This document shows positions 24,807-51,192 of a stretch of DNA of 64,000 bases, in pieces. Position 1 is the stretch's first letter, and each line of letters opens with the position of its first letter. A program made the position numbers and the translations under genes. Origin of the DNA: a virus; IMG/VR virus record IMGVR_UViG_3300020159_002019, positions 1-64,000 of that record; one strand, given 5' to 3'. The notes below the pieces were generated by a model that was not told the origin of the DNA, did no database searches, and worked only from the letters and a program-made list of their open reading frames with translations.

Positions 24807-25061
24807 TTATTTATTAAATATAACTTTAATTTTCCAAAAAGGAAATGTTGGTTCTGATACAGTTCCGTATTGTAAATCTATGTAATTAAGATTACCAATA
24901 GGTGCCGCCATTGGTTGAACTGACACTATATCTTCACCTAATGTTCTAGCATTAACTCTTTGTATTGTTGGCATTATAACACCATTCAATAACGCCCCCC
25001 ATTGTTCGACAAAAGTTTTTTTAGTTTTTTTTCTACTAACGTATTGATTAATTGTTCTCAT
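24807..25061 (-). CDS. Mini-protein resembling the gp23 capsid N-terminal arm
   Basis: 84 residues. MPTIQRVNARTLGEDIVSV followed by QPMAAPIGNLNYIDLQYG aligns without gaps to the conserved gp23 segment of the form RR-x-x-P-x-L-I-A-x-E-x-x-GVQPM-x-x-P-x-G...YG. The rest of a capsid protein is absent, so it is either a truncated paralogue or a small protein built on that arm. The start MRT is shared with the next gene upstream. Function unknown. Confidence 0.5.
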   Translation of the reverse strand: MRTINQYVSRKKTKKTFVEQWGALLNGVIMPTIQRVNARTLGEDIVSVQPMAAPIGNLNYIDLQYGTVSEPTFPFWKIKVIFNK

Positions 25062-27682: not shown

Positions 27683-28000
27683 ATGAAAACAATTAAATTA
27701 ACAGAACAAAATTTAACCAATATCGTTAAGAGGGTTATTAAAGAAAATGGTGGGGCGAGGATAGGGAAAAAATATTCATCTGAAGATGCAAATTACGAGT
27801 ATTATGACAGAAAAATTGATGAGATGAAAGAATCGTTAATAAATACTAAATTAAAAGATATATCTAATTTTAATATGTATGAATATATAACTGATGATGA
27901 TATTGAAATCATTGATTCGGATCCCGATTTAGAGGTTTTATCATCCGAAATAGATGATATTGTACGTGTTATTGAACATATTAGGGAACTGTATTATTAG
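27683..28000 (+). CDS. Small candidate internal-head protein with capsid-targeting-like leader
   Basis: 105 residues. The leader runs to IVKRVIKE (I19-K20-E21), an (I/L)-x-E cleavage-like site at the same position as in the 26248 protein. The remaining ~84 residues are acidic and helical (IRELYY end). Start and stop are tight against the neighbours: its TAG overlaps the GTG/ATG of the next gene. Confidence 0.5.
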   Translation: MKTIKLTEQNLTNIVKRVIKENGGARIGKKYSSEDANYEYYDRKIDEMKESLINTKLKDISNFNMYEYITDDDIEIIDSDPDLEVLSSEIDDIVRVIEHIRELYY

Positions 28001-44160: not shown

Positions 44161-44820
44161 ATGGATAAAAATATAATAAATGAAGTTAAAAGAATCAAAC
44201 AACTTATGAATATAAATGAAGTTGTAATTGATGAAGGTTTTAAAGATTTTATTAGAGTCGCTTCTTTATGTGCAATATTAGCTACAGGTGAAATTTCTTG
44301 TAAAAAAATTGATACTTCTGATATCTCAACAAACCAAGTAACTAAAATTTCTGATTGGTCTAAAATACCACAAGAAGAAATGGAAAAAATGGGGTTTAAA
44401 AGTGTTAATACAATTTCTAATGATACTTTAAAATCCGTTAGAAAATATAACTCAAGACAGCCTTGGGTTGGTATATGGAAATTTACTGAAAATTTTAGAT
44501 CAGCAAATAAAGAATTTTTAATAATATCACCAAATAATTTATTAGATAGAAATAATATTGTCGGTAGTAAAGTATATTGGTGTGCTTGGTCAGATGAAAG
44601 ACAAGTTTATGATATATTCCCATTAAGATTTGTATCTGGCGAAATTTACTATCCCTCAATTCACGATAATAAACCTTATAAGTTTGGATTAAAAGGATAT
44701 TCAAAAAGTAAAAATTTAAACGAATATTTTGAAATTACTTTTTATGGTAAAGATTCTTTAGATATAACTAATTGGATTGCAGGTAAAGCAATAAGAATGG
44801 ATAAATTACCTTATCCATAA
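44161..44820 (+). CDS. Candidate internal-head protein with capsid-targeting-like leader
   Basis: 219 residues. The N-terminus has two (I)-x-E sites: MNINE (I18-N19-E20) and VIDEG (I23-D24-E25), then GFKDFIRV. The E-G-aromatic pattern is shared with the 57588 and 60197 proteins. A hydrophobic stretch VASLCAILATGEISC follows, then a polar domain with W-rich segments (QPWVGIWKFTENF, VYWCAWSDERQVYD). Mature function unknown. Confidence 0.5.
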   Translation: MDKNIINEVKRIKQLMNINEVVIDEGFKDFIRVASLCAILATGEISCKKIDTSDISTNQVTKISDWSKIPQEEMEKMGFKSVNTISNDTLKSVRKYNSRQPWVGIWKFTENFRSANKEFLIISPNNLLDRNNIVGSKVYWCAWSDERQVYDIFPLRFVSGEIYYPSIHDNKPYKFGLKGYSKSKNLNEYFEITFYGKDSLDITNWIAGKAIRMDKLPYP

Positions 44821-44833
44821 TTTATTTTTAGCC

Positions 44834-44841
44834 TATTTATA
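44834..44841 (+). promoter_or_regulatory. TATTTATA box of the export operon
   Basis: Perfect TATTTATA 35 bases before the ATG at 44877. The implied leader is A-rich and ends AACCAACAAATG; a related AACCAACAAAG appears before the 47166 gene. This operon thus seems to have a conventional leader, unlike the virion genes. Confidence 0.5.
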
Positions 44842-44876: not shown

Positions 44877-46760
44877 ATGAAAAAAATCCTATCGTTTTTG
44901 GCATTATTATGCCTATCTGTTATTACGTTCGGGCAAACATGCCCAACACCTAACGGAAACTCAATTATTATTAAACCAAATTACACGGTTTCATCTTCAA
45001 TAGCTAACCAAACAGATGTAAAACTTTGCTATAATAATACAACCACAAGTAAAATTACAGCTCTACAATTTAAGATTAGTTATGACACTATTGCTTTTAC
45101 AGAGCCATCGGTTAGATTAGTTATTCCTGATAGTTCAGATTCTTATTTACAGTTCTATGTAAATAAAGGAACAATTACTATATCAACAGTATATGACGGA
45201 TCAAATCTTAATTATACTTACCCTTCAGGTGAGTTATTTAATATAAACTTCAAACATTCAAATCCAAACACATTTCAATATTTAACAGGGATTACATCGT
45301 TGGGGTTTGATAATCAATACCCAACAATAGCATCAACTAATTTAGGTAAAGATACAACATTAAATAAATTTAACGGTGGTGGTATATTTATTAGACCTTC
45401 TATCAATTTCACAGGAACATTTAAAAACGTAACTGGTTCATTCACTAAAAACCTATTAGTAGGTTTATGGAAACAACCTAAATCAGGTGGTAATTGGACA
45501 TTAGTTAATGTTGATACTACTGACTTAAATGGTAAATTCGCATTTAGTCCTATCGTAGATACTACATATTGGACTTGTAAAATAGAAGTTAAAGGTGATA
45601 CGTTATCTTTAGGTAATGTGGTAACAACAGCAGATGCTCAAAAAGTTAATAGATTTGTATTAGGTATTGAAAATCCAAAAAGTTTTGATTTCCATTCATC
45701 AGATCCAAATAATTCAGGTAATATATCTATTTCAGACGTATATACAATCTTTAATAGAATTGCAGGTAGATTTAGTAGTTTTACAACACCTGACGTTAGA
45801 TTTTTTACAGATATTCAATATAACACAATTACGACAGATAGTTTAACTAATCATTCATTAGATATACCAGGAAGTGCTAATTATTCATATACAATTGTAA
45901 CAGGTGTTGATTCAATTACAGTTTATGTATTAGCAACAGGTGACGTAAATGAAACAGGTTTCCGTATGGCTAGATTAGTTCCAATTAAAATAACTAATCC
46001 ATTAAACGCACCTAATTTCATTATAGATCAAACAACTGATTACTACGCTTCATTAAATGAAATGGAAATTAATTTACCGACATTAAAAATTGAAGAGGGT
46101 AATTTAGTTAATATTCCGGTAACAGTTTTAACTAACGGACAAGAATTAGGGGCTGTGCAATTAGCAATGAAATATGATACAGATTTATTAGAGTTTAGAG
46201 GTGTAAAAACCCTAAACTCAACCGCTAAATGGATGTCATTTACAAATCCTAACGATGGTGTAGTTGAATGGGGTGGTGTAGATATGAGCGAACAAAATAA
46301 AGTTAAAGATGGTAATGATGTAGTTGTAATGCAATTTTACGCTAAAAAACCTAAAGATGATTGGAATGGTTCTCCATTATATGTGACTCGTAAATTTGTA
46401 GGTAATTCAACAGCTAAAGATTTAAGTATTAAACCTACTGATGGTAGAGTGGAAGTTCTTAAAACATCTCCAATTGTATCAAGGTTAAATGGTAGTTTAA
46501 ATATATTAGTTTATCCAAACCCTTCAACAGGTATAGTATCAGTTCAATTTAACGTACCTGATAACAATAATACTATGGTTTATTTTATAGATATGATTGG
46601 ACATAAAGTGGCTGAAATAACTAATGGTAAAATGCCAAAAGGTGAATACAGATACACTGCAAATTTAACAGATTTACCAGTTAGTGCTTATACAGCGGTA
46701 GTTGAGTGTGATGGTAAAATAATTGGTAGCGCGAAACTAATAAACGGCGTATTTATGTAG
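44877..46760 (+). CDS. Exported cohesin/dockerin-like protein with T9SS sorting domain
   Basis: 627 residues. Signal peptide MKKILSFLALLCLSVITFGQ. Residues ~30-140 and ~400-495 look like cohesin/cell-wall-type beta domains (LQFKISYDTIAF; VNIPVTVLTN, AVQLAMKYDTDLLEF). Residues ~245-298 have dockerin-like pairs (VTTADAQKVNRFVLG, NISISDVYTIFNRIAG). The C-terminal ~85 residues are a type IX secretion sorting domain, with VYPNPSTGIVSVQF and PKGEYRYTANLTDLPVSAY. The host T9SS would send it to the cell surface. Such a protein in a phage is unusual and marks a Bacteroidota host. Confidence 0.8.
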   Translation: MKKILSFLALLCLSVITFGQTCPTPNGNSIIIKPNYTVSSSIANQTDVKLCYNNTTTSKITALQFKISYDTIAFTEPSVRLVIPDSSDSYLQFYVNKGTITISTVYDGSNLNYTYPSGELFNINFKHSNPNTFQYLTGITSLGFDNQYPTIASTNLGKDTTLNKFNGGGIFIRPSINFTGTFKNVTGSFTKNLLVGLWKQPKSGGNWTLVNVDTTDLNGKFAFSPIVDTTYWTCKIEVKGDTLSLGNVVTTADAQKVNRFVLGIENPKSFDFHSSDPNNSGNISISDVYTIFNRIAGRFSSFTTPDVRFFTDIQYNTITTDSLTNHSLDIPGSANYSYTIVTGVDSITVYVLATGDVNETGFRMARLVPIKITNPLNAPNFIIDQTTDYYASLNEMEINLPTLKIEEGNLVNIPVTVLTNGQELGAVQLAMKYDTDLLEFRGVKTLNSTAKWMSFTNPNDGVVEWGGVDMSEQNKVKDGNDVVVMQFYAKKPKDDWNGSPLYVTRKFVGNSTAKDLSIKPTDGRVEVLKTSPIVSRLNGSLNILVYPNPSTGIVSVQFNVPDNNNTMVYFIDMIGHKVAEITNGKMPKGEYRYTANLTDLPVSAYTAVVECDGKIIGSAKLINGVFM

Positions 46761-46790
46761 TAGAATAAACATACAAATATAAGAAATATT

Positions 46791-47135
46791 ATGGCAGAAG
46801 AAACAGAAAACACAAACGATGGAACATTGTCAGGTTTAAAGAAAACTATTATTGGTACTCTATCAACAGTAGTACTTGGAGCAGGTACTTGGCTAACAAC
46901 AACATTTTTTAACGGACATTCAGATGATAATGCTGAAACTAAAACAGAACAAGCGGCACCTGCCCCAGCGGCAGCACCTGTTGTAATCAACTTATCAAAC
47001 AATAACGAACAAAAACAACAAAATAATAGTGGTGGTGGAAATACTACAATTATTAAAGAAAGAGTTATAGAAAAACCAGCTCCGGTTAAAGAAGAAAAGA
47101 AAAAAGAAGAACCAAAGGAAGAAGCGCCTTGGTAA
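46791..47135 (+). CDS. Small membrane-anchored linker protein
   Basis: 114 residues. One hydrophobic segment (TIIGTLSTVVLGAGTWLTTTFF, ~19-41), then an Ala/Pro-rich, Gln/Asn-rich, then Lys/Glu-rich tail ending PKEEAPW. Could span the inner membrane with a periplasmic linker. No known family. It lies between the T9SS substrate and the CsgG-like gene. Confidence 0.5.
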   Translation: MAEETENTNDGTLSGLKKTIIGTLSTVVLGAGTWLTTTFFNGHSDDNAETKTEQAAPAPAAAPVVINLSNNNEQKQQNNSGGGNTTIIKERVIEKPAPVKEEKKKEEPKEEAPW

Positions 47136-47165
47136 TAAATCTTAAATAACGAAAACCAACAAAGA

Positions 47166-47879
47166 ATGAAAACCATAAACCAACAAAGCATAATCAACTT
47201 CATAGTGGCTCTTTTAGGGGCGGCTATGATGTTTGGTTGTGGAACAACTAGAACAGAAAAATACACAGCTGATTTTGAAAAGAAACAATCAATACAAGTA
47301 GTAAGTGATTACGATGGGAAACCAATTCCTGTTCAAGTTCTTTCAATCGGTATTAGTGATAATGTCCTTACCTCATACCCAATTCTTAAAGAAAAAAATG
47401 TAGGATTAGGTGTTACAAATATAGCTTTAGATTACTTAGAAGGCACAAATAGATTCGAGTTTACAGAAGATAAAGAAGAAATCAAACTTAAAATGGTTAA
47501 ACAATTCCAAGCAAGTGCTAAAGGCTTTACTGAAAATAAATTAGATGGTAAAGGTAAAATTAAACTTGCAAAGTATTTTGTTTATATTGAAGTATATGAT
47601 TTTTCAGTAGATGAACAAGAAACCTATACTGCGGGTAAAAAGCAATTAGAAGTAACTACAAGATTAGGTCTACAAATTAGATTTGTTGATGCTGAATCTG
47701 GACAAGTTAGAGTAGGTTCTGGTATGGGTGAAGCAACCCAATACGGTCAATCATTTTTGAAATCTCTTGATATGAAATTTGCGCAGTCAACTGTTGGTAT
47801 TTCGACAAGAAAATCCTTAGAAACAGCTTGTTCAAGGGTGGTATCCAAAATGATTAAAGATGGAATCTTTGAAAAATAA
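47166..47879 (+). CDS. CsgG-like outer-membrane secretion lipoprotein
   Basis: 237 residues. Lipoprotein signal with AAMMFGC (C25). The body follows CsgG/HfaB-type proteins: IPVQVLSIGISDN, LGVTNIALDYLEGTNRFEF, LAKYFVYIEVYDFSV, EVTTRLGLQIRFVDAESGQVRVGSGMGEA and a C-terminal helix SLETACSRVVSKMIKDGIFE. CsgG forms the outer-membrane export pore for curli. In this operon it might export one of the neighbouring proteins. Similarity is by pattern, not search. Confidence 0.6.
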   Translation: MKTINQQSIINFIVALLGAAMMFGCGTTRTEKYTADFEKKQSIQVVSDYDGKPIPVQVLSIGISDNVLTSYPILKEKNVGLGVTNIALDYLEGTNRFEFTEDKEEIKLKMVKQFQASAKGFTENKLDGKGKIKLAKYFVYIEVYDFSVDEQETYTAGKKQLEVTTRLGLQIRFVDAESGQVRVGSGMGEATQYGQSFLKSLDMKFAQSTVGISTRKSLETACSRVVSKMIKDGIFEK

Positions 47880-49107
47880 AATAATTTCTATTATTTTAAT
47901 TTTATTTATGATGAGTGGGTTGAGCGTAAAAGCTCAATCTATTTCATATTCATATGTTGATCCCTGTACTAAAGAAACTAAAAATATTACAGTATCTGGA
48001 TTAAATGGTACTTTACCTATTGTAATGAATTATTATGGGCAAGTAAAAGCATTTACACCAACAGAACTTCAAAACGGAACTTTTGACTCTTGGGCTAATT
48101 CAGTTTATAATGAATATGGTAAAGGAAATCCTTGCGCTCAAATAGGGATTCAAACAATTACAACGAATGTATTAAATGTAACTAATAACGTAGTTAATAA
48201 TGTTGTTTCATTAGGTTCTATGCTAACTTCAATAACATCTTCAGGGGTTAATTCTATACCTACCGATGTAGTATCAACAACCGGAACTGGATCTAATACT
48301 ACCACTTCTAATAATAATTCAGGTGGAGGAAGAACTATAACAGGTGGTAAATCAGAAAAAGGAGTTCAAAGTAAAGAAGAAAAACAAGAAGAGCAAAAAC
48401 AAGAAGAAGTTAAGCAAGAAGAAACTAAACAATCTTCTAATTCTGCCAAATCAACTAGTAAAGCAACCTCAAAATCAGACAAACCGGCTATTATGTTAAC
48501 AGGCGATTTGGTTGGTATGCAATCTGCTTCTGATAATACACAAGACGCTAAAGCTACAACATCATATATTAGAATATCTGGAAATAAAAAGACATCGTTA
48601 GGTGTATCAGCAGATTTTACAATAAATGCTAATATAGGTAATATAACAGTATTTAGATCTTGGATGACACAAAAAACAGCTCGTAAACATATTGATTTAG
48701 TTTCTAATAGTATATCAATATTACCAAACAGCTTTAGCAATACATTAGTATTTATAAGAATAGATAACGTAAAGAAATTCACTGGACTATATGGTGTTGG
48801 GGGTATGTATGGGGCTTTAAACAAAGAACCGCTAACTTCTTTATTAACTCTTGGTGGTGGGATGTATAAAGGACAACTAACTAAAAATGTTGATGCGGTA
48901 TTTATATTAGTGGCTGTATATGTTCCATATATGAAATATTATACTGAAAGTATAATGAAATCAAAACCATTAATACTTCCATTTATGAATATAAACTATA
49001 AAGTAACTAAATCCTTTAGATTTGGATTAACGGCTGGAACCACATATTCGGTAAATGAACAACTAATAAACTATCAAGTATTATTTGGAGCTAAATTAAC
49101 TTTATGA
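47860..49107 (+). CDS. Exported outer-membrane-like protein
   Basis: 415 residues. Signal peptide ending GLSVKAQ. A N-terminal domain (YSYVDPCTKETKNITVSG; ...WANSVYNEYGKGNPCA) is followed by an N/T/V repeat (TTNVLNVTNNVVNNVVSLGS), a KEEKQEEQKQEEVKQEE charged linker, and a C-terminal ~200-residue domain of alternating strands (TSLGVSADFTINANIGNITV ... FRFGLTAGTTYS) ending FGAKLTL, which looks like an outer-membrane beta-barrel. The start overlaps csgG-like by 20 bases. Confidence 0.6.
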   Translation: MESLKNKIISIILILFMMSGLSVKAQSISYSYVDPCTKETKNITVSGLNGTLPIVMNYYGQVKAFTPTELQNGTFDSWANSVYNEYGKGNPCAQIGIQTITTNVLNVTNNVVNNVVSLGSMLTSITSSGVNSIPTDVVSTTGTGSNTTTSNNNSGGGRTITGGKSEKGVQSKEEKQEEQKQEEVKQEETKQSSNSAKSTSKATSKSDKPAIMLTGDLVGMQSASDNTQDAKATTSYIRISGNKKTSLGVSADFTINANIGNITVFRSWMTQKTARKHIDLVSNSISILPNSFSNTLVFIRIDNVKKFTGLYGVGGMYGALNKEPLTSLLTLGGGMYKGQLTKNVDAVFILVAVYVPYMKYYTESIMKSKPLILPFMNINYKVTKSFRFGLTAGTTYSVNEQLINYQVLFGAKLTL

Positions 49108-50759
49108 GAAAAATATTATTATTTTTACTATTATTATCATCAGTTGTTAAAAGTCAAAACTTTTCTCAGACAGGTAGGGTGTTTGGTATAAATAATGTAG
49201 GAGTATCTAATATAAGAATACAATTTTGGAAACGAACAACATCAGCCCTTACAGGATTCACATCCCAAACAAACTATAATGGACATTCTTATTATCGTTC
49301 AACAACAACTAATACTTGGACAGGCTCTAAATCTACTTGTGAAAGTATGGGAGGACATTTAGTTACGATGTCTAACGCAGCTGAAAATACATTTGTGTTT
49401 GGAACATGGCCTTCAGGATGGTTTGGATATTATCAAGATAAAAGTACTGGGTATTTCTTTTCAGAGCCTTTAGGAGGATTTAGATGGACTGAATTACCTG
49501 TAACAACGAGTTTAGTTGCTAATTATGATATAGCAGATACTAATTCATATAAAACAACATCACCTACGTTAGTTAGGAATACTATTAAAGGAACTAACGC
49601 TACTTTATTTAGTACTCCAACATATACAGCAACATCAGGTAAGTATATGTCATTTAATGGTTCAACACAATATATGATGACTGAAAATCTTGGAAGTTAT
49701 TTTAATTCAGGCGTTGTTAGTTTAATGTTATGGTGTTACCCAACAGATGCCGGTGTATTAGTATCTGAACAAGGACAACCTTCCGTTGATGGTGGTTGGT
49801 TTGATTCTCAAATTGAAATAACTAATGTAAGTGGTTCAACCGGAACATTAAGGTGTGGAACTTGGAGTGGTAGTGGATTACAAAGTGTAAGTACAACAAT
49901 AACATTAAATCAATGGAACTTTATATGTTTAACACATTCAGGAACTCAATTAAAAGGATACTTAAATGGGACAAACTTTAATTCTTTATCTTACGTAAGA
50001 CAATACCCTTCTCAATTATATTATACCTTCGCTTCTAAATGTAATACAAATATGGGTGATGGAACATTTGCTAATGCCAGATTAGGTTCATTTCAAGTAT
50101 CTAATGTTGTATGGACAGATGATGAGGTAAATAGAAGTTATATGTTTAATGCTTATAGATTTGGAGTATATCCATATTCTAATTGGAATAATGGCGAGCC
50201 TAATAATGCAGGAACAGAAGATTATGCTCAGTTCGTAAGTGGTGGTAAATGGAATGACTTACCAAACTCAGCGATGCTTAATTATGTATTGGAATTTGAT
50301 TATATAACATCAAACGGAACTTGGGTTTTAGATACAACAGTATTAACAAATACTAGTGGAGATTATTCGGTTTTAAGAACATCTAACCCTTCTATTGAGT
50401 GGAGAATAATATTAGATACATTATCTATATCATCACCGCAAAGAACTAATGCTTTAGATAATAACAACCTTATATTTAATAAAAGAACTATTAACGGAGC
50501 TGATTATTTTAGATATGATTTAAATACTGATAATAATTTTTCAGTTTCAGATATTTATTTACAAATAAAAAAACGTAGAGGATTGATTTGGACGGTACCA
50601 AATTATAGAATATATACACAAACGGAACATTCTACAATTAGGTTATCAGTCACGGATTTAAGATTAACATATCCGGGAGTTCAAACAACTACAGCGTCAC
50701 CACTAACAAATGGTGGTGTGACTAATTTTTATATATTAAGAACAGGCTATGACAATTAA
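49104..50759 (+). CDS. Exported C-type lectin interrupted by a LamG-like domain
   Basis: 551 residues. Signal peptide MRKILLFLLLLSSVVKSQ. Residues ~57-130 are the first half of a C-type lectin domain (HSYYRSTTTNTWTGSKSTC, then GGHLVTMSNAAEN, WFGYYQD). Residues ~138-345 are a LamG/concanavalin-type jelly roll (YDIADTNSY, YMSFNGSTQYMM, GVVSLMLWCYP, WNFICLTHSG). The second lectin half follows (SNWNNGEPNNAGTEDYAQF, GKWNDLP, NYVLEFDY) with the calcium/mannose-type EPN and WND motifs. The rest has DNNLIFNKRTINGADYFRYD. Likely a sugar-binding surface protein. Confidence 0.7.
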   Translation: MRKILLFLLLLSSVVKSQNFSQTGRVFGINNVGVSNIRIQFWKRTTSALTGFTSQTNYNGHSYYRSTTTNTWTGSKSTCESMGGHLVTMSNAAENTFVFGTWPSGWFGYYQDKSTGYFFSEPLGGFRWTELPVTTSLVANYDIADTNSYKTTSPTLVRNTIKGTNATLFSTPTYTATSGKYMSFNGSTQYMMTENLGSYFNSGVVSLMLWCYPTDAGVLVSEQGQPSVDGGWFDSQIEITNVSGSTGTLRCGTWSGSGLQSVSTTITLNQWNFICLTHSGTQLKGYLNGTNFNSLSYVRQYPSQLYYTFASKCNTNMGDGTFANARLGSFQVSNVVWTDDEVNRSYMFNAYRFGVYPYSNWNNGEPNNAGTEDYAQFVSGGKWNDLPNSAMLNYVLEFDYITSNGTWVLDTTVLTNTSGDYSVLRTSNPSIEWRIILDTLSISSPQRTNALDNNNLIFNKRTINGADYFRYDLNTDNNFSVSDIYLQIKKRRGLIWTVPNYRIYTQTEHSTIRLSVTDLRLTYPGVQTTTASPLTNGGVTNFYILRTGYDN

Positions 50760-51192
50760 AAGTTTATTATTTGGGTTATTATTCCTTCCATTGTTTTCAT
50801 TTGGACAATGTGTAAAAGTTGATTCAGTTTATAATAAAACTGAAATGAAATCTATTGAAAATAGATCCGTATTATTTGGTATTAAACAAATCACGGAAGA
50901 TCTTTTACAAGATAAAGGTTTTGATATTTGTCAAGACGGATCACCAATATATGTTGAAATAACCTATATTGGATTACCTGAAAATACATTTAGAATTGCT
51001 GGATTTGCCTTACAAAACAAGATTACGGAAATTAAAGTTAAAATAATAAACGGAATTAGAATAATGGAAGGAACTGGAACTTATAAAACATCTACAAATG
51101 CTATGATGCTTGAAATAAATGAAGAAGTTCCATTTAAACAAACAGTCCTATCTAATGCTATTAAATTAGCTTTGATAAACGCTTTGAGGTAA
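50749..51192 (+). CDS. Small exported protein
   Basis: 147 residues. Signal peptide MTIKSLLFGLLFLPLFSFGQ, then a single small domain with YVEITYIGLPENTFRIAG and IKVKIINGIRIMEGTGTYKT. The pattern of alternating strands and a C-terminal helix TVLSNAIKLALINAL resembles small periplasmic domains of the CsgG neighbourhood, but no family is recognised. It starts inside the lectin gene's last codons and ends against uvsW-like. Confidence 0.5.
   Translation: MTIKSLLFGLLFLPLFSFGQCVKVDSVYNKTEMKSIENRSVLFGIKQITEDLLQDKGFDICQDGSPIYVEITYIGLPENTFRIAGFALQNKITEIKVKIINGIRIMEGTGTYKTSTNAMMLEINEEVPFKQTVLSNAIKLALINALR

Follow-up and report, generated by a model that had tools for sequence, protein, structure and literature searches.

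A phage-borne cassette of cohesin, CsgG-fold, outer-membrane-type barrel and lectin genes in large Bacteroidota phages: a candidate surface-display system

We analysed a stretch of viral DNA comprising bases 1-64,000 of the 109,290-base virus record IMGVR_UViG_3300020159_002019 (hereafter the window), in which a cassette of six plus-strand genes, named B, C, D, E, F and G in order, occupies positions 44877-51192. The cassette may encode an envelope or surface-display system of the phage, in which a dockerin-tagged, swappable glycan-binding head is held on a cohesin scaffold delivered by the host type IX secretion system (T9SS); we place about half of our confidence in this reading. A fuller version is more tentative, and we consider it somewhat doubtful: that a T9SS-dependent cohesin-dockerin scaffold with exchangeable lectin heads stands on a complex of two CsgG-fold proteins and a 12-strand barrel, that it controls the infected cell's encounters with phages or other cells before lysis, and that it constitutes a new viral system. 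The genes and the domains discussed below are as follows.

44877..46760 (+): B, exported scaffold-like protein of 627 residues, with a first cohesin-like domain, a dockerin-type module, a second cohesin domain and a T9SS C-terminal sorting domain
45018..45260 (+): B residues 48-128, weak first cohesin-like domain (Pfam Cohesin 5e-4, below cut-off)
45702..45737 (+): B dockerin-type calcium loop, D276-N278...D287, residues conserved in homologues
46068..46457 (+): B residues 398-527, cohesin domain scoring 28.4 bits in Pfam against a cut-off of 24.1
46509..46715 (+): B residues 545-613, T9SS sorting domain, shared by 33 of 34 homologues
46791..47135 (+): C, 114 residues, with a Gly-rich hydrophobic segment, a Pro/Lys/Glu-rich tail and a terminal W
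47166..47879 (+): D, CsgG-fold protein of 237 residues, with a Cys after the signal sequence
47860..49107 (+): E, exported protein with an N-domain, a disordered linker and a 12-strand outer-membrane-type barrel (48487-49101)
49104..50759 (+): F, exported adhesin-like protein of 551 residues, a C-type lectin split by LamG and a C-terminal dockerin-type module
49308..49493 (+): F residues 69-130, opening portion of the C-type lectin, matching Pfam Lectin_C at 30.5 bits against a cut-off of 22.6
49656..50132 (+): F residues 185-343, LamG inserted in the lectin (Pfam Laminin_G_3 40.8 bits)
50517..50552 (+): F dockerin-type calcium loop, D472-N474...D483, residues conserved in homologues
50749..51192 (+): G, exported protein of 147 residues, a shorter D homologue

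The six open reading frames (ORFs) are tightly packed. B and C, like C and D, are separated by 30 nucleotides, whereas D/E, E/F and F/G overlap by 20, 4 and 11 nucleotides, respectively, and G stops one base short of a convergent helicase-like gene. These coordinates and overlaps agree with the ORF list, as described in an earlier, sequence-only reading of this DNA that had recognised six consecutive plus-strand genes abutting or overlapping one another. That reading had also taken all six products to be exported or membrane proteins. This holds for B, D, E, F and G, which carry signal sequences; for C, a single membrane pass or anchor is plausible but was not called at a Kyte-Doolittle value of >= 1.5. 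Its assignments of B as a cohesin/dockerin-like protein with a type IX sorting domain, of F as an interrupted C-type lectin (both domains are over the cut-off) and of E as an outer-membrane-like protein (modelled as a 12-strand barrel) were borne out, whereas G, described as a small secreted protein, is exported but is more than that, as its relationship to D indicates.

The gene order is widely conserved among viruses. A scan of viral contigs with D yielded 196 relatives, of which 80 were kept, and a later profile scan yielded 406 viral stretches. Synteny of the cassette recurs in about 100 IMG/VR loci. Among 86 loci (the window and other pieces of its record included), the order was BCDEFG in 37, BCDEGF in 16, FBCDEG in nine and ABCDEFG in six, and partial gene patterns were mostly found at contig ends. 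Because homologues keep this order in other viral contigs, we take all six ORFs to be real genes. The cassette is also present in a cultured isolate, Flavobacterium phage immuto, where it spans gp013-gp019 and B is divided between two genes; in a collection of 50,697 annotated phage records, matches to D or B occurred only in immuto records. Host debris is ruled out by the comparison of the 406 viral stretches with three genome loci: D was found in 3 of 84,980 bacterial genomes in a pattern-limited scan, and a profile search found it in none of 395 further Bacteroidota genomes. The attribution of these genes to a conserved unit of Bacteroidota phages thus stands.

The head of F is exchanged while the remaining cassette stays fixed, and of all the observations this one argues most strongly that F recognises something variable. 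Two loci, L006 and L007, are 99, 100, 97 and 100% identical in B, D, E and G, respectively, and only 28% identical in the middle of F. There, one of them encodes a lectin with LamG (339 residues) and the other a PA14-type domain (167 residues), followed by dockerin-type modules that are 83% identical. The L007 head is in turn 88% identical to that of L020, though the B proteins of these two loci are only 71% identical. In a second pair of near-identical cassettes, L022 and L023, the LamG insertion is absent from L022. Across 25 F proteins, the heads included Lectin_C in 17, LamG in eight and PA14 in four. The dockerin-type loop is better conserved: N474 and D483 are invariant among 25 homologues and D472 is present in 90% or more, with Pfam Dockerin_1 matching in five of the 25 at weak E-values.

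The domains of B would suit a scaffold. The cohesin domain was found in 31 of 34 B homologues and its profile matches the PDB cohesins 6kg8 and 4ums, while the first cohesin-like domain exceeds the Pfam cut-off in the relative L016 (2.7e-5). In the dockerin-type loop, D276, N278 and D287 are invariant in 34 homologues, 15 of which match Pfam Dockerin_1 with weak E-values. The T9SS tail of the window copy scores 24.4 bits, just below the cut-off of 27, and that of immuto gp015 scores 34.6 bits; the tail profile matches the PDB T9SS C-terminal domains 8glk and 8glj. By its signal sequence and C-terminal sorting domain, B is a predicted T9SS substrate. A cohesin gene and a separate dockerin-type gene occur together in 84 of 102 loci, which is only consistent with binding between B and F. 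A whole-length profile alignment of B with F was rejected for its inflated global score, and the comparison was limited to the dockerin-type modules.

The fold of D was evaluated with an AlphaFold2 model (pLDDT 68.8). In a Foldseek search of the PDB, the model matched 4uv2 (E 1.5e-8) and the first 19 matches were all CsgG, with TM values of 0.35-0.47; the best named match among viral models was an uncultured phage CsgG (E 5.2e-7). The CsgG call of the sequence-only reading therefore survived structural comparison. At the sequence level, the CsgG family (PF03783) did not match the window D and matched one of 24 homologues (0.00097), and a direct PDB sequence search with D or G gave no useful match. 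The same reading had called D a lipoprotein, and this part holds less generally: in an alignment, the window and its near relatives have a Cys following the signal sequence that most homologues lack, so that lipidation is likely in the window clade and not conserved in most relatives. The first-pore-hairpin motif of CsgG, SGGVGARYFGIG, is absent from D. The corresponding segment has a similar alternating hydropathy but is shorter (23-24 versus 30 residues) and more charged (0.32 versus 0.17), and a CsgG pore hairpin is not recognisable in the D sequence.

With signal sequences removed, G and D gave a profile-profile match of 97.5%, against at most 1.1% for ten shuffled controls, which argues that G is a paralogue of D and that both have a CsgG-type fold. 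TraT-type surface exclusion was considered and rejected, as two divergent G homologues reached only 0.0018 and 0.014 (18.5 and 15.6 bits against a cut-off of 31) and the window G gave no match. E, whose N-domain has two invariant Cys residues (C36 and C92), is predicted to be an outer-membrane barrel; its structural matches comprise NalP (1.9e-7), the amyloid exporter FapF (2.4e-6), KdgM and other barrels, and point to no specific function. Homologues of C were found in 92 of 102 loci, and C had no family match. Its Pro/Lys/Glu-rich tail showed by eye no obvious coiled coil of the kind found in a two-component spanin, a feature for which no dedicated test was made.

Genes resembling part of the cassette occur in one bacterial context. 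On the KSB1 contig METF01000126 (L109 787-3591), a metagenome-assembled contig of 6.7 kb for which misbinning is possible, two CsgG-fold genes flank a barrel gene without B, C or F. One is homologous to D (99.9%) and exceeds the Pfam CsgG threshold (25.6 versus 20.8 bits), and the other matches G at 97.0% and D at 96.6%. The barrel gene is E-like in layout only: at 1.4% its match to E is not significant, and it was rejected as an E homologue. The cluster suggests that D, E and G may be an older core to which B, C and F were added later. Remote CsgG-like genes were present in 13 of 82 genomes of the KSB1 phylum, and no D-E-G cluster was seen in the four neighbourhoods looked at.

Taken as a display system, the cassette would work as follows. 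The host T9SS would place B on the cell surface, where its cohesin would hold the dockerin-type module of F, or perhaps that of another B to give a chain. D, E and G would together make up an outer-membrane complex, either as an anchor for this assembly or as its passage. The infected cell would then display a lectin whose specificity tracks local glycans and, as far as the gene neighbourhood tells, would do so late in infection. The benefit could be receptor masking against other phages or binding to neighbouring cells, two outcomes that are inseparable here, as are the superinfection block, cell aggregation and prolonged attachment suggested in the sequence-only reading. If the display reading is true, large Bacteroidota phages use the host T9SS to remake the infected cell's surface, with a sugar-binding head that changes as a unit, and the cassette would help to explain how these abundant aquatic phages deal with rivals or with the cells around them and why unrelated phages repeatedly carry CsgG-fold proteins. 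Since a cultured carrier exists (immuto on Flavobacterium sp. LMO8), the question is directly testable.

Several observations weigh against the display reading. The Pfam dockerin matches are weak, at best 0.0004 in B and 0.0013 in F, and the partner of the B cohesin is uncertain because B has its own dockerin-type module. F has no T9SS tail that would take it across the outer membrane. Some loci have B-C-D-E-G but no F, and therefore the apparatus would not serve F alone. Finally, the frequent endolysin and holin-like neighbours of the cassette fit a role in lysis as well.

This last point is the basis for an alternative that we regard as unlikely but substantial, in which the outer membrane is opened or weakened as infection ends by D, G and E, helped by C and by small membrane proteins known from relatives and acting together with endolysin and holin, while B and F are passengers or separate debris from progeny. 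Of the 21 records with a full endolysin (PG_binding_1 plus GH19), 13 have it no more than 7.5 kb from D, where 2.04 were expected. After thinning by groups set by hand, which left records still related to each other, the count was 9 of 15 against 1.45 expected, a value unreached in 1,000,000 simulations. In some loci B begins directly after the endolysin, and 23 of 27 D clusters have small membrane proteins of holin-like size within the cassette. A lysis role has also been proposed for the CsgG of phage Melnitz (PMC9004378). However, the holin-like label reflects size and hydrophobicity only, as the small membrane proteins of relatives matched no Pfam family, and the endolysin is distant from the cassette in immuto, G001, G505-G507, G512, G520, G502 and the window's own record, where the sole endolysin-like match lies at about 74 kb. 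In immuto, endolysin and holin are annotated as genes of their own, and lysis alone would not account for lectin heads, a cohesin and a T9SS tail. The readings overlap, in that display and action at lysis could be combined in one system. One family of these small membrane proteins, conserved, 120 residues long and encoded between C and D in relatives (for example L071 10660-11022 and L077 9636-9998), was found in 62 of 102 loci; it is absent from the window cassette.

We find it improbable that the cassette is a self-contained secretion unit in which D as a CsgG-type pore, or E as a FapF- or autotransporter-like barrel, exports F, and perhaps a fibre as well, to the surface. The CsgG fold of D and the resemblance of E to NalP and FapF among other barrels would suit such a unit, and F, with a signal sequence and no T9SS tail, needs some exit route. 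Against this, the first-hairpin segment of D differs from that of CsgG in length and charge, the barrel matches of E are common to all 12-strand barrels, no CsgF, CsgE or curlin homologue was found, and D, E and G are retained in loci that lack F. The sequence-only reading had envisaged curli-like export through a CsgG-type pore of the cassette's own, and this proposal was not supported: searches by family and by profile against the HTVC008M proteins found no CsgF, CsgE or curlin, which rejects curli proper, and D lacks a recognisable pore hairpin. A role in uptake or envelope maintenance unrelated to adhesion, as a nutrient channel or for stability of the infected cell, seems very improbable to us. 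The KSB1 cluster, with D/E/G-like genes but neither B nor F, would imply that the core had another cellular use, and uptake has been suggested for the pelagiphage CsgG (PMC7029224). Such a role leaves the swapped lectin heads and the T9SS-delivered cohesin unexplained. Least credible of all is that B and F decorate phage particles for attachment. Receptor-binding proteins often contain C-type lectin and LamG domains; yet the signal sequences and T9SS tail would take B and F out of the cytoplasm, where virions assemble, and in immuto other genes are annotated as tail fibre and spike.

Parts of the cassette have precedents in phages. Curli (type VIII secretion) operons have been described in pelagiphages including HTVC008M (PMC7029224; completed with curlin genes in PMC9599517) and in the methylophage Melnitz (PMC9004378). 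Like the present cassette, these are phage-borne envelope operons with a CsgG-fold protein in T4-like aquatic phages, and their proposed roles (aggregation, superinfection block and lysis) overlap with those considered here. Unlike them, the cassette has no CsgF, curlin or FecR and instead has a T9SS tail, cohesin, dockerin-type modules, a lectin head, a 12-strand barrel and a second CsgG-fold protein, and none of its six families matched HTVC008M gp014-gp018 in a profile comparison. HTVC008M gp016 and gp018 (L087 8871-9557 and 10638-11963) showed curlin-like repeats by eye, in agreement with PMC9599517 and against the report that curlin genes are missing (PMC7029224).

The T4-like marine Bacteroidetes virus TARA_ERS488589_N000003 carries curli and surface-protein genes, a putative cell-adhesion system for which aggregation of infected cells was suggested (PMC7198788). 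By the description in the portion of that report drawn on here, its genes are reported as curli, with no mention of cohesin, dockerin, T9SS or lectin. T9SS sorting domains also occur on strain-variable genes of the Bacteroidetes virus Cryophage (PMC7468147); in the portion of that source considered here, the tails are on endoglucanase, GH39 and PA14 genes and no cassette with cohesin, CsgG-fold or barrel proteins is described. Cellulosome scaffolds share a cohesin domain and dockerin-type calcium loops on partner proteins with the predicted B and F products, but the cassette is phage-borne, has a T9SS tail, carries a lectin in place of enzymes and has diverged dockerin modules. For cohesin and dockerin in phages, we found no such cassette in the open-licence literature. 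The suggestion that such a unit would be new thus needs qualifying: this composition was not found described, but one part is related to known phage CsgG modules, and both phage CsgG/curli operons (PMC7029224, PMC9599517, PMC9004378, PMC7198788) and phage T9SS domains (PMC7468147) had already been published.

The viruses that carry the cassette are large (79 to 435 kb in 26 long records). A T4-type capsid match was found in 16 of the 26, ranging from 80% identity down to weak matches of about 22-28%, while D stays at 55-62% or more. An immuto-like capsid gene was found in 16 records, with D in two of them; most of these are fragments, so this figure is not a frequency. The tail sheath family PF17481, considered as a marker of these records, matched in none of them and so was uninformative. 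The immuto major capsid protein is matched over short stretches (44-50% over 44-49 residues) outside the listed long ORFs at window positions 24861-25007 and at L004 11857-12251, and no intact capsid gene was found in the record that bears them. Immuto (L086, L110) also has genes for queuosine/7-deazaguanine DNA modification, and its run of glycosyltransferase and sugar-metabolism genes is a second possible surface-altering set.

Upstream of the cassette, one further element had been proposed, a promoter-like box with a long A-rich leader, unlike the virion genes.

44833..44841 (+): promoter-like box CTATTTATA, 35 nucleotides ahead of the B start codon, with an A-rich leader after it

Leader length does differ as proposed, but the box itself is common to four other genes: it ends exactly 3 nucleotides before the ATG of the plus-strand genes at 27683, 29952, 53191 and 57588, with starts at approximately 27674, 29943, 53182 and 57579. 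With at most one mismatch, the box lies within 60 nucleotides upstream of 14 of 114 genes, compared with 3% of random windows and eight genes for the reverse-complement control. It may be a phage promoter. The spacing of 3 nucleotides to the ATG is unusual for a promoter unless the transcripts are nearly leaderless. The gene directly before the cassette (44161-44820; 219 residues, N-terminus MDKNIINEVKRIKQLMNIN) falls outside the conserved unit and is present only in the near relatives of the window, at 33-95% identity.

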